Shown here one piece after another: positions 6,476-12,772 of a stretch of DNA of 42,765 nt. Below the pieces are notes generated by a model. It made no database searches. It saw only the letters and a list, made by a program, of their open reading frames with translations, and was not told the origin of the DNA. Every line of letters starts with the position of its first letter. Positions within the stretch are counted from its first letter, which is position 1. A program made the translations under genes and the position numbers. Source of the DNA: Candidatus Poseidonia sp. (GTDB lineage Archaea > Thermoplasmatota > Poseidoniia > Poseidoniales > Poseidoniaceae); contig JASLVM010000013.1 in the NCBI GenBank assembly GCA_030741355.1, forward strand, positions 1 to 42,765, in the 5' to 3' direction.

Positions 6476-7135
6476 TCATTCGGACTCAAAGGCGTCCACG
6501 ACTTCGAGCATTTCTGTATCGCCGTCAACCATTTCTTCAGCTTCAATGGCCTCGTCGGGCTTCACTTCCAAGCCGATGAACGGGTCCTTTCCGTCTTCAA
6601 TCATGCACAAGAGGCGCCACCGTGGAGCCCAAGACAAGTGGACATAGATGGGCCCAGGTAGCAAAAGCAAGGCCCAAACCAACAACGGAGGAATGACCAG
6701 CATTTCCACACGGTCGATGGTCAAGAGCGCCAGTCCAAGGAAGGGCATGGGGTAGAGAATTTGGCGAGGTGGTGCGACTGGATGCCGTTGTGAGAAGGCG
6801 ATGAGCAAGACGGAAACAAAGCCGCAGGCTCCAGAGGCGATGATCAACAACGAAGCGTGGAACATCCATTGAACACCCCATACCTCGCTGCTGTCTCCGT
6901 AGGCGTAGGGTAGGATGAGGGCCAACGCCACCAAGAATCCGTAAAACCCTCCGATGTTAGCGGGGTGGCTTAACCACAACGGGAGCCGAGAGAAACGGCG
7001 GGAGAGCGATGTGCCCAAGAGCGTCTCTTGCTCCTGGGGAGCCAAGGCCTCGACCTTGGACATCCATGTTTCATTGGTTGGCACAACTTCCGGTCGGTGG
7101 AAACGGTTTTGAAGATAGGGGTCGTTTTTCTGCAA
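6476..7135 (-). CDS. Multi-pass membrane protein of unknown function
   Basis: A 219-residue protein read from a TTG at 7135; an ATG further in (7063) is possible. After about 55 soluble residues there are four likely membrane helices (starting near IGGFYGFLVALAL, MFHASLLIIASGA, ILYPMPFLGLALL and LLVWALLLLPGPI). An acidic C-terminal tail ends in DAFESE. No enzyme motif is visible. It is the last gene of a three-gene minus-strand run with the DUF309 protein and a two-helix membrane protein, six bases after the latter, so co-transcription is likely. Confidence 0.7.
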   Translation of the reverse strand: MQKNDPYLQNRFHRPEVVPTNETWMSKVEALAPQEQETLLGTSLSRRFSRLPLWLSHPANIGGFYGFLVALALILPYAYGDSSEVWGVQWMFHASLLIIASGACGFVSVLLIAFSQRHPVAPPRQILYPMPFLGLALLTIDRVEMLVIPPLLVWALLLLPGPIYVHLSWAPRWRLLCMIEDGKDPFIGLEVKPDEAIEAEEMVDGDTEMLEVVDAFESE

Positions 7136-7141
7136 AAAGAT

Positions 7142-7798
7142 TCATTCTTTGCCACGGAAAAACGAAACGAGTGGACTTTCAACGTCCACGACTTCCTCGT
7201 CCTCAAGCCAAGAACGCTCAAGCAGCCCGGAATCGTTCTTCTCCCGGTCTCTTGCATCTTCAATCGGGTCGTGCACTTCGTTGACAGCATTGCGAAGAGC
7301 GATGGCCTGGTTGATCAGAGCAAGATGTCGGGCAAGGGTGCCAGCCACCTCTTTTGCGCTCGAAAAATGGCCAAGAGCCGGAAAATCTTCGGTGTCCTGA
7401 ACCAGCGTGAACCCTCCGAGAAGGTCGTCCGGTATCGTGCGAACCCTGTGTTCTCCTGGAGCAATCCAACGCCCGTCTGCCATTTGGATCATCACCCTTG
7501 CTTCCCCCATCGGTTCCGTGTCCATGAAGGGGTGATTGAGGTTGACCGCCAAAGGTGTTGAGGCATGGCTCTGGAATCGAAGCCAAACCACGGTGGCGTT
7601 CATGATGAGGGTGATGGTGGCGAAGAGGGATGCAAGCGCCGACGATAAGGCGAATTGGCGCAGAAGAAAGAAAAGCACCAAAGCGAACACCACGCTTCCG
7701 ACCATCGCCGTGTTTCGCCCTTTGATGAGAGGTTGTGCCACCGGGGTATCGATGAAGCGAAGCATGTCGGTGGGCAGCACCGAAGCATCATCGACCAT
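7142..7798 (-). CDS. Two-helix membrane protein of unknown function
   Basis: A 218-residue product from the ATG at 7798. The open frame reaches 7990, but that extension overlaps the upstream DUF309 gene in another frame and is compositionally different. Two adjacent membrane helices lie near residues 30-70 (AMVGSVVFALVLFFLLRQF and SLFATITLIMNATVVWL). They are followed by a soluble domain with a helical stretch (GTLARHLALINQAIALRNAVNE) and an acidic end. I do not recognise a family. It is placed tightly between a DUF309 gene and another membrane-protein gene on the same strand. Confidence 0.65.
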   Translation of the reverse strand: MVDDASVLPTDMLRFIDTPVAQPLIKGRNTAMVGSVVFALVLFFLLRQFALSSALASLFATITLIMNATVVWLRFQSHASTPLAVNLNHPFMDTEPMGEARVMIQMADGRWIAPGEHRVRTIPDDLLGGFTLVQDTEDFPALGHFSSAKEVAGTLARHLALINQAIALRNAVNEVHDPIEDARDREKNDSGLLERSWLEDEEVVDVESPLVSFFRGKE

Positions 7799-7829
7799 GG
7801 GGTGAACCAAACGCCGCTGACTTTGAACC

Positions 7830-8216
7830 TCACGCCCGCGGCATTTGGTGGTCGCTGGCCGTTTGCGTCCATTCTCCAGCATCCAACGCATAGGTTTCAA
7901 TGACTTCGAGATGACCGGAGATGTCAAGCCCCCAAGCCGTTGACCATTCCGACAACTTCGGATGCAATTTTGCCCATTGCTTTCGAACACCTACGGCGTT
8001 TTTCCGTTCGTGGTGGAGCAACATCGCCGCCGTTTGTATGAGCCCTTGAACGAGAAGAATCTCGGCATCAGGGGCCTCTCTTCGCTTCAGGGCATTCCAC
8101 AAATCTTCCCATGATTCGTGAGCGTGCCAGAACTGGGCGGTATCAAATCGGTGGAGTCCTTCGTTGAGCAGTTGCGTCTCGTCCGCATCGAGCGGTCCAG
8201 CGGTCAACGGGCTCAT
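7830..8216 (-). CDS. DUF309 domain protein
   Basis: The helical DUF309 signature is clear: FWHAHESWEDLW, then VQGLIQTAAMLLHH and later a KLHPKL-type segment. This matches the family pattern F..aHE..E.lW...GLiq.A..l.H. Biochemical function of the family is not established. The start is uncertain. In-frame ATGs lie at 8321, 8234 and 8216; the DUF309 core needs only the shortest form (128 residues), and the longest would overlap the divergent gene's start by two bases. I chose 8216, which leaves a short divergent spacer, but no TATA or ribosome-binding site decides it. Confidence 0.8.
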   Translation of the reverse strand: MSPLTAGPLDADETQLLNEGLHRFDTAQFWHAHESWEDLWNALKRREAPDAEILLVQGLIQTAAMLLHHERKNAVGVRKQWAKLHPKLSEWSTAWGLDISGHLEVIETYALDAGEWTQTASDHQMPRA

Positions 8217-8319: not shown

Positions 8320-10263
8320 ATGGTCACGATAGAACACGGCGACATGGTCGAACAACGGCGCGGAGGTGTCGATGTTCTTCGCGTCTTGGTTCGAAATCTC
8401 GCCGCTCATGAGCAGTCTGGAGCCGTTTATATCCGGCCTTCCTCCGACCGGGAAGGATGGTTGCTTTTCCGGCTCGGTCAACCCGTCATGGCCTTCCATC
8501 AGGGCGAGACCGAGCAACAAGGTTTGGAAGCCCTCCTCAGCATTGAGGAAGATGCGCTGGATGTTGGAAGTGAGTTGCGACTCTACGAGTTGACGATGAA
8601 CGCCTTGCGTTCAACGATGGCTCAACATCCCGAAAGCGTCCTTCATCTTGAGCACCAAGAGCAAAAAGCGACCGGCTCCTCATGGTGGTCAAGTGTTCGC
8701 CTTCCTTCGACCTCGTGGCGACGTGCCTCTCGACTTGAGGAGATTGAAGCGTTGGCCCTGGATACCGAACATCGGCGAAGAGAAACAATGGAAACGAATT
8801 CGTTTCAACTTGAACCTGGGCATGTTTACCTTCTCGACTCACCGGACCCTCATCCAATGATTTCCCTGGGTGTAGAATTGGCAGAACGTGGGATGCCCCT
8901 CCTCGGTATGTTCGGTCTGCCCCATGCGCAAACCGAAGCAACCCACCGCTTGCCCGGGCCCCAAACCTATGCGTTACTCTCGCCCCATGGTGGGTACGAG
9001 GTTCTCCAAGACCAAGCTTCGATTCACGCCGTGGTCAATGCTTTTCAATGGGGGAATGAGCGCTCGGTTCTCCTCATCGACGGTTTGGACCGCCTCGCCA
9101 ACGCCTTCGGAGAAAACGGCATGGTGGACGTGTTCCGTTCAATTTGTGATGGCGTTCGCTTCAACGACCATATCGCTTTGATCACCACAGACTTGGAATT
9201 GTTTGAGACGGCCGTTCAACGTTCCATCGCTTCAGAATCGACGAACCTCCGTCAAAACACCATCGCGCAGTGGATTGATGACCCCGATGTCCTTTGGGAC
9301 CACCCGGTCCTGATGGCTCCCGATGAGGAAGAAGAGCAATGGCTCGAGGCACAAATCCGACATCAAGGTGCAAAGGTCGGTGGTCCTGCGACGTACGGCG
9401 ACACCCTCCTTGAGGGCGGTAGTTTTGCACCCGAGGATGAAGACCGAATCGAGGCGACCCAAGCGTTGAGCGAAGTGGTCGAGGCGTGGCCTGAACAACC
9501 GGGCCGCGTTCGTGATGCCGTAGCAGAGCCAGAACTCAGCAACGTCGCCATCGGTTCCACCTCGTGGAGGCCCGAAATCGAATCCTCAGTGGTTCGTGGA
9601 GGCTATGTTAGTGAATCACCAAGAGCGATTGAGGGCCCGGATGAGGGACACGATGCTCCTGCCGAGGTCAAGCGAGGGCGAAAAACCAAACCGGCACCCA
9701 AGGTCGCACCGCCTCAGCTTCGTTCTCCGCAACGCCTTCCTTCGAGGAAGCCCAGACCACAACTTCCGGAAATTGACCAGGGCTTGACCACCGGTCGAAG
9801 TTCTGCGGTTGTCAACAGCGCCTCAACCTTACCGGACTGGCCGACCAAGGCTCAAGCCAAAGATGCGTTCCGAAAGGAAAACATGGATGTGTTCGCCGAT
9901 AAACAAAGTTCTGCGCTTGAGCGACAAAAGAAATTGGCGGTCCCTGCCCACACCAAAGCGCTGAAGGACAACGTCGTCAGTTCACCCGACCTTTCCGAGG
10001 CGACGTTGCCCATGCCAGCCATGAACAAGACCGTCAAACTTCCTTCAGAAGCGGATGAAGCACCGCTGACCAACAGTCTTCGCCCAGTCAACCAGGAAGC
10101 AAAACCTTCCAGAGAGGCCTCCTCAAAAACCCAAACCAAAGTGGATGTTGAGAAGGCGTATGTTGAATGGTCAACCTTTGACGAACCCGACGGTATGGAT
10201 GCGACGGCTCTGTACAATGAACGGGGAGAGGCTTTGAAGCGATACGACGGTGAAGAGCCATGA
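8320..10263 (+). CDS. DUF835 domain protein with PATAN/DUF4388-like N-terminus and long disordered tail
   Basis: A 647-residue cytoplasmic protein with no signal peptide. Residues about 18-95 (GAVYIRP...WLLFRLGQPVMAFHQG) look like the DUF4388/PATAN fold found in bacterial and archaeal regulators. Residues about 165-305 match DUF835: GHVYLLDSPDPHPM, then SVLLIDGLDRLANAFGENG, a Walker-B-like strand ending in Asp, and ALITTDLELF. DUF835 resembles a P-loop ATPase core without a Walker A, and none is visible here. Residues about 310-420 are acidic and 420-640 are Pro/Lys/Ser-rich and probably disordered. AGGGTG seven bases before the ATG supports the start. The stop overlaps the next ATG (ATGA), so it is translationally coupled to the DnaA-like gene. 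Confidence 0.75.
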   Translation: MVTIEHGDMVEQRRGGVDVLRVLVRNLAAHEQSGAVYIRPSSDREGWLLFRLGQPVMAFHQGETEQQGLEALLSIEEDALDVGSELRLYELTMNALRSTMAQHPESVLHLEHQEQKATGSSWWSSVRLPSTSWRRASRLEEIEALALDTEHRRRETMETNSFQLEPGHVYLLDSPDPHPMISLGVELAERGMPLLGMFGLPHAQTEATHRLPGPQTYALLSPHGGYEVLQDQASIHAVVNAFQWGNERSVLLIDGLDRLANAFGENGMVDVFRSICDGVRFNDHIALITTDLELFETAVQRSIASESTNLRQNTIAQWIDDPDVLWDHPVLMAPDEEEEQWLEAQIRHQGAKVGGPATYGDTLLEGGSFAPEDEDRIEATQALSEVVEAWPEQPGRVRDAVAEPELSNVAIGSTSWRPEIESSVVRGGYVSESPRAIEGPDEGHDAPAEVKRGRKTKPAPKVAPPQLRSPQRLPSRKPRPQLPEIDQGLTTGRSSAVVNSASTLPDWPTKAQAKDAFRKENMDVFADKQSSALERQKKLAVPAHTKALKDNVVSSPDLSEATLPMPAMNKTVKLPSEADEAPLTNSLRPVNQEAKPSREASSKTQTKVDVEKAYVEWSTFDEPDGMDATALYNERGEALKRYDGEEP

Positions 10264-12302
10264 CGCCTCCACCGACCAAATTGCGAACTCAGTTGGAAGA
10301 AGCGAAGCGCCAGCTAAGGGATTCCATTCATGCCCAACAAGTGACCGATGGTCCCTCCGTCAAACCATCCACGCCCTCCGATATCCATCAGCGTCCAGCG
10401 CGATCCAAACTCAACACCTTACTCGGAAAGACCAGCGTTCCCCAACGCCCCCTTTCCTTGTTCCAAACCGTGGGGGTGTCTCAGCGACCAACCTACGATT
10501 TAATCGCTGACCGGATTCTTGGAACCGATGTTGGTGCGCCTCAGTCTTTCCTCGACCATCACACCGGCTACGCACATCATGTTGCAGAACGCTTGTTGCA
10601 TTTGCAACAACGACTGGAAGCTGCCCAAAGCCCACCTCTTTCGTCCGAAACACCCGACCTCTACGTGGGTGTTGAAGCGGATGGACGACCTGTTTGGAGC
10701 CAGGTCTTGAGCGAGCAAAGGGGCGAGGAGCGGCGTGCTCTAGGGGAAGAACTTGCACCGCCAAGTGAGGCGGACGCCTTCCATGCAACTCGTATCCTCA
10801 ACATCGCTTCTGACTGGCCACAACGCCTTGGTTGGTCAAACCATTTGACCTTCAAGCAATGGTTTGTGGCCGAGGAGAATTTCCAAGCGACGCAATATTG
10901 CGAACAGGTCGTTGACCGCCCTGCGCACCATCTCAACCCCCTTCTGGTCGTGGCCGACCCACAAGCAGGCTGTTCACACTTGCTTCACGCCACCGGGCAA
11001 GCCTTGCTCCGTCGTCAAGAAGGCCATGTGTTGTTCATCACGGCTGCGGACATGTCCGGTACCGATGTTCTCGATGCATCTTGGCAGAACGCTTTGCCAG
11101 GTGGAACCGCATTGGTGATCGACGATGTTCACGAATTTGCAGAACATGAAACATGGAGTCACCAACTGGGGGTCCTCGTTGACCACGCCCTGAACCACGG
11201 CCTTCAGGTGATCGCTGGGGGTCGTACGGCCGTCAATGCGTTCTCTTCTTCCAGATTGAAGGAAGTGTTCCGTTCATCTCTTGAAGTTCGTCTCAGTTCT
11301 CCGCAGTCTCCAACCCTCATGGCCTATGCTCGTTGGCGATGTGCTCAGCGAAATTTACTGGTTTCTGACCGACATCTCGCCCAAATCAGCCGTATGCAGC
11401 CGCAGGGTTGGCGAATGATTGAGACGAGGCTGGAGCAGTTGGCTTTGGCTTTCGAATCGGGGGCCGTTCTGCTTGACCACGATGACGTTGATGACGTGCT
11501 TGGTGGGGTGAACCCTGCCGCTTCCGTTGAAGAAGAGCAACGTGTTGAGGATCTTGCTTCCCGCCTTGTAGGCGACGCATTGGACAGTGTGTATTCCTCC
11601 TTGGAAGCAGGTGGTATCGACTTGCACAGTCCGCTGGAACCTTGGGCTGAAGACGATTACCAACCGCCTGGATGGGACGCAACCTCCATGCGTGATGGTG
11701 CTCGACATCTCGAAGAGAAACTGCGAGAAAGCGTTGACTCGGTTGAACCTGGACGCCCCTCCGTTTTGGACGTTCACGAACGCGAGAAATACATCATTCG
11801 AGCAAACGACCCTCTCGATGATTCAGATGTTGGACGGGCTGTTGAAGTGCTGGTCGATTTGGACGATGCCATCGATCAGCGAATGAACGCATCAACCGCA
11901 GCGAGCGTGTCAGCCTCCCTTGAACTTCAGCAACTCGAGGAGCAGATGGTCGTGCTCGCCCAACGCGCTGTCGAGGCCGATATTGATGAACTCATCACCA
12001 TCGCCGATGAACTTCGCTCGCTTGAGGAACGCTTGGTCGAACTTGACCCGGACAGGGCCCCTCTGCCTCCATTCGAAGACGATGTTCCCGCCAAACGCGA
12101 ACGAAAGGCGGTTCGACGCCGCAAACGACCGGCCGTCTCAGCGCCTCAAGAAGCCTTGGACTCCTTTGAGCCAGAGGGAGAATGGAACATCGACGGCACC
12201 GGGATTTCAGCGGACGATTTGCTTGAAGACGAATCCGAGAAGAACGTGGTGCATCTGGCCCGCCTCCATCCACGAACGGTGTTGATGGGTGAGGAAGAAT
12301 GA
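10260..12302 (+). CDS. DnaA/Hda-like AAA+ domain protein with degenerate Walker A
   Basis: A 680-residue protein whose middle (about 196-395) follows the bacterial DnaA AAA+ core step by step. LTFKQWFVAEEN corresponds to the yTFdnFvvGpsN entry motif, and HLNPLLVVADPQAGCSHLLHA aligns with NPLfiyGgvGlGKTHLLHA. The Walker B strand is intact (ALVIDDVHEF, Asp288-Asp289), and WRMIETRLEQL aligns with sensor 2 (vRelEgaL). Key residues are lost: the Walker A GKT reads GCS (237-239), and the arginine-finger motif RLrSRF reads RLKEVF. ATP hydrolysis is therefore unlikely. Residues 1-195 match nothing I know; about 540-598 is a coiled coil, and a basic patch (KRERKAVRRRKR) follows. DnaA's DNA-binding domain IV was not seen. 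It overlaps both neighbours by ATGA. Confidence 0.75.
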   Translation: MTPPPTKLRTQLEEAKRQLRDSIHAQQVTDGPSVKPSTPSDIHQRPARSKLNTLLGKTSVPQRPLSLFQTVGVSQRPTYDLIADRILGTDVGAPQSFLDHHTGYAHHVAERLLHLQQRLEAAQSPPLSSETPDLYVGVEADGRPVWSQVLSEQRGEERRALGEELAPPSEADAFHATRILNIASDWPQRLGWSNHLTFKQWFVAEENFQATQYCEQVVDRPAHHLNPLLVVADPQAGCSHLLHATGQALLRRQEGHVLFITAADMSGTDVLDASWQNALPGGTALVIDDVHEFAEHETWSHQLGVLVDHALNHGLQVIAGGRTAVNAFSSSRLKEVFRSSLEVRLSSPQSPTLMAYARWRCAQRNLLVSDRHLAQISRMQPQGWRMIETRLEQLALAFESGAVLLDHDDVDDVLGGVNPAASVEEEQRVEDLASRLVGDALDSVYSSLEAGGIDLHSPLEPWAEDDYQPPGWDATSMRDGARHLEEKLRESVDSVEPGRPSVLDVHEREKYIIRANDPLDDSDVGRAVEVLVDLDDAIDQRMNASTAASVSASLELQQLEEQMVVLAQRAVEADIDELITIADELRSLEERLVELDPDRAPLPPFEDDVPAKRERKAVRRRKRPAVSAPQEALDSFEPEGEWNIDGTGISADDLLEDESEKNVVHLARLHPRTVLMGEEE

Positions 12303-12772
12303 GGGCTCCTTGGTGGTCGAAAGGGGTCAACTTTTCCTGTCAACCCAACTGCGGTAAGTGTTGCGATCAACCCGGTGGCATTGTCTACCTCTCTGCCGAT
12401 GACGCGAAGAGGCTTGCAGACCATGCCGGTTTGGATGTACCCACTTGGCTCGAACGTGATGCTCGCACGACCTTTGATGGTCGCTATGTGTTGAAAAGCC
12501 GGGAAGAAGACGGTATCTGCATTCATTTGAACGACCAGCAGCAATGCAACATTTACGAGATTCGTCCCCAGCAGTGCAAAGCGTTCCCGTGGTGGGGTGA
12601 AAACCTCGCCACCGCCTCTGCGTGGGAGGGCGTGAAGCGAACCTGTCCGGGCATTGATGCCGAGGATGCCATCCTCATTGACGGTCAAACCATTCGAATC
12701 AACATCTTCGCCGACCGTACTTCGACGAAAGGGTTCCGAACATGGCCGCCCAAGAAGTTCCGCCGGAAATGA
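12299..12772 (+). CDS. YkgJ-family cysteine-cluster protein
   Basis: A 157-residue protein with the YkgJ/CxxCxxCC signature. SCQPNCGKCC carries Cys14, 18, 21 and 22, followed by the GICIHL...QCNIYEIRPQQCKAFPWW block, which matches the family pattern CpfL...CsIYe.RP..Cr.yP. The family is thought to bind zinc or iron; some relatives act on the flagellar or secretion apparatus and others are unassigned, so no reaction is claimed. Its ATG overlaps the stop of the DnaA-like gene (ATGA), making it the third gene of a tightly coupled unit. Citrate synthase starts about 100 bases later with its own promoter. Confidence 0.85.
   Translation: MRAPWWSKGVNFSCQPNCGKCCDQPGGIVYLSADDAKRLADHAGLDVPTWLERDARTTFDGRYVLKSREEDGICIHLNDQQQCNIYEIRPQQCKAFPWWGENLATASAWEGVKRTCPGIDAEDAILIDGQTIRINIFADRTSTKGFRTWPPKKFRRK

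Follow-up and report, generated by a model that had tools for sequence, protein, structure and literature searches.

The window analysed here is a 42,765-nucleotide stretch of DNA (positions 1 to 42,765 of contig JASLVM010000013.1, assembly GCA_030741355.1) from the archaeon Candidatus Poseidonia sp. It contains a gene for a DnaA-like AAA+ protein, P0001, and directly upstream a gene for a partner protein, P0002; the last 4 bases of this gene are also the first 4 of P0001. The analysis revealed that P0001 carries a real DnaA-type AAA+ core. Together, P0001 and P0002 probably constitute a two-protein regulatory scaffold or signalling unit, which would be the split form of single-chain relatives and not a replication initiator. 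Relatives were surveyed within Thermoplasmatota, in metagenome-assembled genomes (MAGs), and the motif positions were read on the numbering of E. coli DnaA from the alignment. Below, "the family" is the window's own family and "the sister family" is family 2, Marine Group IIb. The features of the two genes were as follows.

8320..10263, plus strand: P0002, the partner gene, 647 amino acids, with an N-terminal alpha/beta domain and a DUF835 (inactive KaiC-like) domain
8341..8631, plus strand: N-domain of P0002, residues ~8-104; a profile of it also finds the N-termini of single-chain DnaA-DUF835 proteins, and Pfam assigned it to no family
8824..9249, plus strand: DUF835-like RecA/KaiC fold of P0002, residues ~169-310, without a P-loop (PF05763 matches of relatives; Foldseek)
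10260..12302, plus strand: P0001, DnaA-like AAA+ protein, 680 amino acids, ATG start (open reading frame, Pfam, PDB profile, Foldseek)
10821..11459, plus strand: AAA+ core of DnaA domain III type, residues ~188-400 (Pfam, PDB profile, AlphaFold, Foldseek)
10953..10976, plus strand: degenerate Walker A, residues 232-239, ADPQAGCS, with Lys replaced by Cys238 (alignment)
11115..11126, plus strand: intact Walker B, residues 286-289 (alignment)
11250..11270, plus strand: box VII region SRLKEVF, which contains the arginine-finger position
11409..11435, plus strand: sensor 2-like WRMIETRLE
11820..12044, plus strand: long helical hairpin in the C-terminal region, residues 521-595, a high-confidence prediction and among the better conserved parts
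12090..12134, plus strand: basic stretch predicted to be disordered, residues ~611-625, KRERKAVRRRKRPAV (sequence; predicted local distance difference test score, pLDDT, below 50)

The sole significant Pfam family in P0001 was Bac_DnaA, which matched residues 195-320 with 35.5 bits (1.5e-8; cut-off 23). The same model exceeded its cut-off in control archaea as well, such as Methanocaldococcus jannaschii and Haloferax volcanii, and therefore the bare Pfam match was insufficient. A search of the PDB with a 64-member P0001 profile placed DnaA structures at the top (8btg, 3.5e-23; 2z4r, 1.3e-18; 1l8q, 5.4e-15), and DnaC and Hda came much lower in the ranking. DnaA also ranked first in the NCBIfam scan, where P0001 missed both the TIGR00362 DnaA equivalog cut-off (57.3 against 343.9 bits) and the TIGR03420 Hda cut-off (37 against 194.8 bits). 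The AlphaFold model of the core had a pLDDT of ~93-97 over most of its length and 77-89 in a few blocks, and the best 17 PDB matches found with this model by Foldseek were all DnaA or Hda, with a TMt of 0.82 for DnaA. Because the PDB profile, the NCBIfam ranking and the AlphaFold/Foldseek matches agreed, the core was assigned to the real DnaA type; a chance resemblance was ruled out by the Pfam, PDB profile and Foldseek results. The initial annotation, aligned by eye, had proposed that residues ~196-395 follow the DnaA core in order, and this was confirmed by the Pfam match and by box I (LTFKQWF) and NPL...HLLHA. Its statement that DnaA domain IV is missing also held, since no Pfam match to Bac_DnaA_C was found in P0001, in 63 relatives or in the scanned single-chain proteins. 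No match to DnaA domain I was found in P0001.

Analysis of the catalytic motifs showed that Walker A of P0001 read G237-C238-S239, with C238 at the position of K178 of E. coli DnaA, and that the first Gly of the motif was lost too (A232). The arginine-finger position R285 was occupied by V336, whereas the aspartates of Walker B (DD288-289) and the sensor 2 arginine (R385, at the R334 position) were retained, so that the earlier reading by eye of all four motifs was correct. The sensor 1 region had drifted in the window's genus, where GGR replaced TSD. The distance between Walker A and Walker B was 49 residues in P0001 as against 56 in DnaA, about 7 amino acids shorter. This spacing was 48-52 in Marine Group II and 55-57 in 20 of the 22 single-chain Thermoplasmatota proteins, and the shortening, judged by length and alignment, removes most of the segment with the initiator-specific helix that binds single-stranded DNA (ssDNA).

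The position of K178 was Lys in all 22 single-chain proteins and in all five aligned members of the sister family, and nearly always Lys (29) or Arg (20) in the other members of Marine Group IIa. The 17 aligned rows of the window's genus contained Cys, Ile, Gly or Thr instead, and when the remaining members were read as well, the lysine was absent in all 18 searched genomes of the genus. Two isolated losses were found outside the genus (L014 and L027). The position of R285 was Arg in 18 of the 22 single-chain proteins and in no aligned row of Marine Group II; Walker B was kept across the aligned relatives, and the sensor 2 Arg was mostly kept. In a tree of the P0001 relatives, all Marine Group II forms made up one clade (Shimodaira-Hasegawa-like approximate likelihood ratio test, 99), and six changes of the Walker A lysine state were needed, including one loss at the base of the window's genus. 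The tree was made by a quick method from 229 columns, with the Walker A columns kept in and several long branches, and its deep joins are unsure. Because the relatives in other genera have Lys or Arg, the lysine loss in the window's genus is, on the aligned sequences, derived and Lys is ancestral. The order of loss was the arginine finger together with the spacing of the ssDNA-binding helix, and then the Walker A lysine in the window's genus. The description of P0001 as a catalytically dead DnaA-like protein thus stood with respect to the degenerate Walker A and the missing finger, but the lysine loss was late and confined to the genus level; the GCS change likewise reflects a loss shared by the whole genus, whereas the other genera of the family nearly always have Lys or Arg.

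P0001 was present in 56 of the 58 genomes of the family, and all 18 searched genomes of the window's genus had it with an unchanged architecture. When the window was compared with its nearest relatives, the ratio of nonsynonymous to synonymous substitution rates (dN/dS) was 0.06-0.10 for P0001 and likewise for P0002, values that are rough since dS was near saturation. These ratios point to purifying selection on both genes, strong in the case of P0001, and together with the presence in 56 family genomes they show that P0001 is neither a chance open reading frame nor a decaying gene. Contamination or a lone oddity was ruled out by the same distribution and by conserved synteny across the order. 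A single-protein scan for a viral or mobile origin found no P0001 relative in viral contigs.

The initial annotation had described P0001 by itself, which proved incomplete: adjacency, co-occurrence and single-chain relatives showed that P0001 and P0002 form a two-gene unit. Of 106 loci, a count that includes duplicates of one gene, 97 had the P0002 relative directly upstream of the P0001 relative and in the same orientation; the other nine were mostly contig edges or frames with an upstream extension that overlapped beyond the set limit. Among 60 genomes of the order, both genes were found in 34 and neither in 25; the one genome with P0002 alone was a 360-contig assembly in which the locus was apparently cut by a contig edge. 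Fisher tests of this co-occurrence, which ignore relatedness, gave p = 5e-16 overall and 7e-6 within the sister family. Each Marine Group II genome tested contained only 1-2 DUF835 genes, so that chance adjacency of P0001 and DUF835 is unlikely there; the other six Thermoplasmatota tested had 9-31. In the P0002 family, 28 of 40 members matched PF05763 at E values up to 0.01, several of them above the cut-off, and the corresponding part of the P0002 model gave a RecA/KaiC-like fold in Foldseek with weak scores. The N-domain had been suggested by eye to be PATAN (DUF4388) or DUF2226, but did not match these Pfam models; a sub-threshold DUF2226 match (16.6 bits) occurred in the single-chain protein L104 only. 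Between the N-domain and DUF835, an invariant Trp-Trp followed by basic residues was observed (residues 122-123, window 8683-8688), which could serve to bind a membrane or a partner.

The initial annotation had considered a DnaA-like protein exceptional in an archaeon. This was not upheld, since DnaA-type AAA+ domains, usually with intact motifs, were widespread in Thermoplasmatota. The architecture of the single-chain proteins was N-domain, coiled coil, DnaA AAA+ and DUF835. The profile of the P0002 family matched both ends of about nine such proteins (L104, L105, L109, L111, L117, L120, L121, L129 and L130): the N-terminal end corresponds to the N-domain, the C-terminal end to DUF835, and the DnaA core lies in the middle; the N-terminal match was weak in L120 and L117. 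Pfam DUF835 scored above the cut-off in the single-chain relatives. At two further loci a separate DUF835 gene lay beside or near a DnaA-like gene, and in one of them DUF835 was fused to a seven-transmembrane (7TM) region. By its domain content, the Marine Group II pair is the split form of the single-chain protein, with the N-domain and DUF835 in P0002 and the DnaA core in P0001.

Other DnaA-type proteins and their surroundings were also observed. Four single-chain genes (L104, L105, L109 and L111) were close to thiC and gyrB, often also gyrA, and this proximity in four related loci is probably one ancestral arrangement. In bacteria, dnaA is located near the gyrase genes. In L110 (3955-7454) and L113, the DnaA AAA+ domain followed a fibronectin-like region and an apparent membrane segment, and L110 was near a 7TM-DUF835 protein, which looks like a membrane sensor arrangement. 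L102, L103, L112, L128 and L131 encoded proteins of ~1000-1400 amino acids with the DnaA AAA+ domain near the C-terminus. Scanning of L102 and L112 revealed a long SMC-like coiled coil, zinc ribbons and no domain IV, and L112 exceeded the TIGR00362 DnaA equivalog cut-off (367.7 bits).

A regulatory role was favoured because the literature lists DUF835, an inactivated KaiC (iKaiC), among the output domains that archaeal response regulators use (PMC5847659). The proposal in the initial annotation that P0001 is a repurposed regulatory or structural relative of DnaA was accordingly retained as probable. In the proposed unit, P0001 and P0002 would bind each other, with a contact between the DnaA core and the RecA-like DUF835 domain; the helical hairpin of P0001 may form multimers, and the N-domain of P0002 may receive the input. 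For most relatives, the assembly would change state when nucleotide binds. Those with an intact Walker A and no finger would be expected to bind without hydrolysis in trans, and the window's genus would be expected to have a fixed, nucleotide-independent scaffold. Several points weigh against this interpretation: the predicted template modelling scores of the whole chains were low (0.44 for P0001 and 0.37 for P0002), P0002 itself reached only 11.8 bits against the PF05763 cut-off of 33.1, so that its DUF835 assignment rests on relatives, and a missing Walker A lysine alone is no proof of lost nucleotide binding.

The closest folds of P0001 were DnaA and Hda, and P0001 could in principle be a replication regulator, a factor of this kind controlling initiation through binding to DNA, to Orc1/Cdc6 or to the sliding clamp. 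The gyrB-gyrA genes near some single-chain relatives keep a DNA-linked role alive, and binding of nucleic acid by the basic disordered tail is conceivable. We nevertheless regard this explanation as unlikely. DnaA domains I and IV had no match, the arginine finger and the spacing of the ssDNA-binding helix were lost in all Marine Group II, and the window's genome contained two Orc1/Cdc6 genes. The pair was at 1.52 Mb in G011, a relative assembled as one contig, where ~0.31 and 0.82 Mb separate it from the two Orc1/Cdc6 genes, and the whole pair was missing in most genomes of the sister family. For these reasons P0001 is probably not a replication initiator, while some DNA-linked role remains a rival. 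The Cdc6_C (PF09079) matches of the genome were on other contigs, with none in P0001, and an origin-proximal location of the pair was not seen in G011. A nucleotide-binding switch despite the altered Walker A is doubtful to a similar degree; here ATP or ADP would still be held by Ser239, Walker B and sensor 2, as happens in certain pseudo-ATPases. Ser239, the Walker B aspartates and mostly the sensor 2 Arg were kept, and Arg replaced Lys in other genera, but Gly at 232 and sensor 1 had drifted in the window's genus.

Control of the archaellum or a pilus appeared improbable, although the phyletic pattern of the pair resembled that of the archaellum. All sampled genomes of the family had archaellin and all but one had P0001, and three of the five carriers in the sister family had archaellin; however, two carriers there had none, five genomes with archaellin were without the pair (Fisher p = 0.10), and no archaellum gene was near the pair. 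Decay of P0001, which the stepwise loss of catalytic motifs might suggest, was refuted by the dN/dS values and the constant architecture in the genus, and hardly any weight is left to it.

Compared with known systems, P0001 shares with DnaA domain III (PF00308, TIGR00362) the AAA+ core, box I, NPL..HLLHA, Walker B and sensor 2. It differs from DnaA in the absence of domains I and IV, the arginine finger and the Walker A Lys, in the shortened segment between Walker A and B, in its N- and C-terminal regions and in having a DUF835 protein as partner. Hda, the second-best fold match, is likewise a DnaA-type AAA+ protein without domain IV, but it is ~230 amino acids long and acts with the bacterial beta clamp, whereas P0001 has 680 amino acids and scored far below the Hda cut-off. 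The single-chain DnaA-DUF835 proteins have the same three parts as P0001 and P0002 but in one chain, with Walker A, arginine finger and sensor 2 mostly intact. The DUF835 domain is common to the P0002 family and the iKaiC proteins, in which it occurs as REC-DUF835 or REC-PAS-PAS-DUF835 (PMC5847659); its pairing with a DnaA-type AAA+ domain was not found in the open-access papers searched. The SSV "DnaA-like" AAA+ ATPase (arCOG07960) is also archaeal and DnaA-like by name, but it is virus-associated (PMC4158269), whereas P0001 had no relative in viral contigs in the single-protein scan.

More tentatively than the two-protein unit itself, these proteins may represent an undescribed regulatory system of Thermoplasmatota, which would combine a DnaA-type AAA+ switch with an inactive KaiC-like domain, be split in Marine Group II and, in Poseidonia, consist of two dead ATPases in a strongly selected scaffold. 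Literature on archaeal DnaA-like proteins, DUF835 and Bac_DnaA gave no description of a DnaA-DUF835 unit in open-access papers, and an earlier account elsewhere is possible. DnaA is regarded as the initiator of bacteria, and in archaea this part is assigned to Orc1/Cdc6. That one archaeal phylum has many DnaA-type AAA+ domains, linked to DUF835 and not to a DNA-binding domain, suggests that the DnaA core came to serve as a general switch in Archaea. The series from intact motifs through the lost finger and Lys to Arg to Lys to Cys amounts to a natural experiment in which an AAA+ switch becomes a scaffold, and it was found in one of the most abundant archaeal groups of the ocean.

The assembly with the window comprised 1.97 Mb in 127 contigs. 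Its nearest named relatives were MAGs of Poseidoniaceae (Marine Group II) with protein identity of up to 82 percent, and several more distant matches inside the window's genus were filed as Poseidonia sp. The genes on either side of the pair were as follows.

6476-7990, minus strand: two small genes, uncharacterised, whose products have hydrophobic segments; they are divergent from the pair
12299-12772, plus strand: gene for a CxxCxxCC (PF03692) protein; its first 4 bases are shared with the end of P0001

The gene order with the downstream CxxCxxCC gene and citrate synthase was conserved. Both were considered and rejected as functional partners, and the CxxCxxCC gene is probably a mere neighbour outside the unit because in most sister-family loci it runs in the opposite direction. 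The two small genes kept the same position in most loci across the order. A second, stand-alone DUF835 protein was present in many Marine Group II genomes (L143:1807-2913 and L144:331-1887, both on the minus strand), and its gene was located back to back with a gene for an EF-hand-like, zinc-ribbon-like protein.

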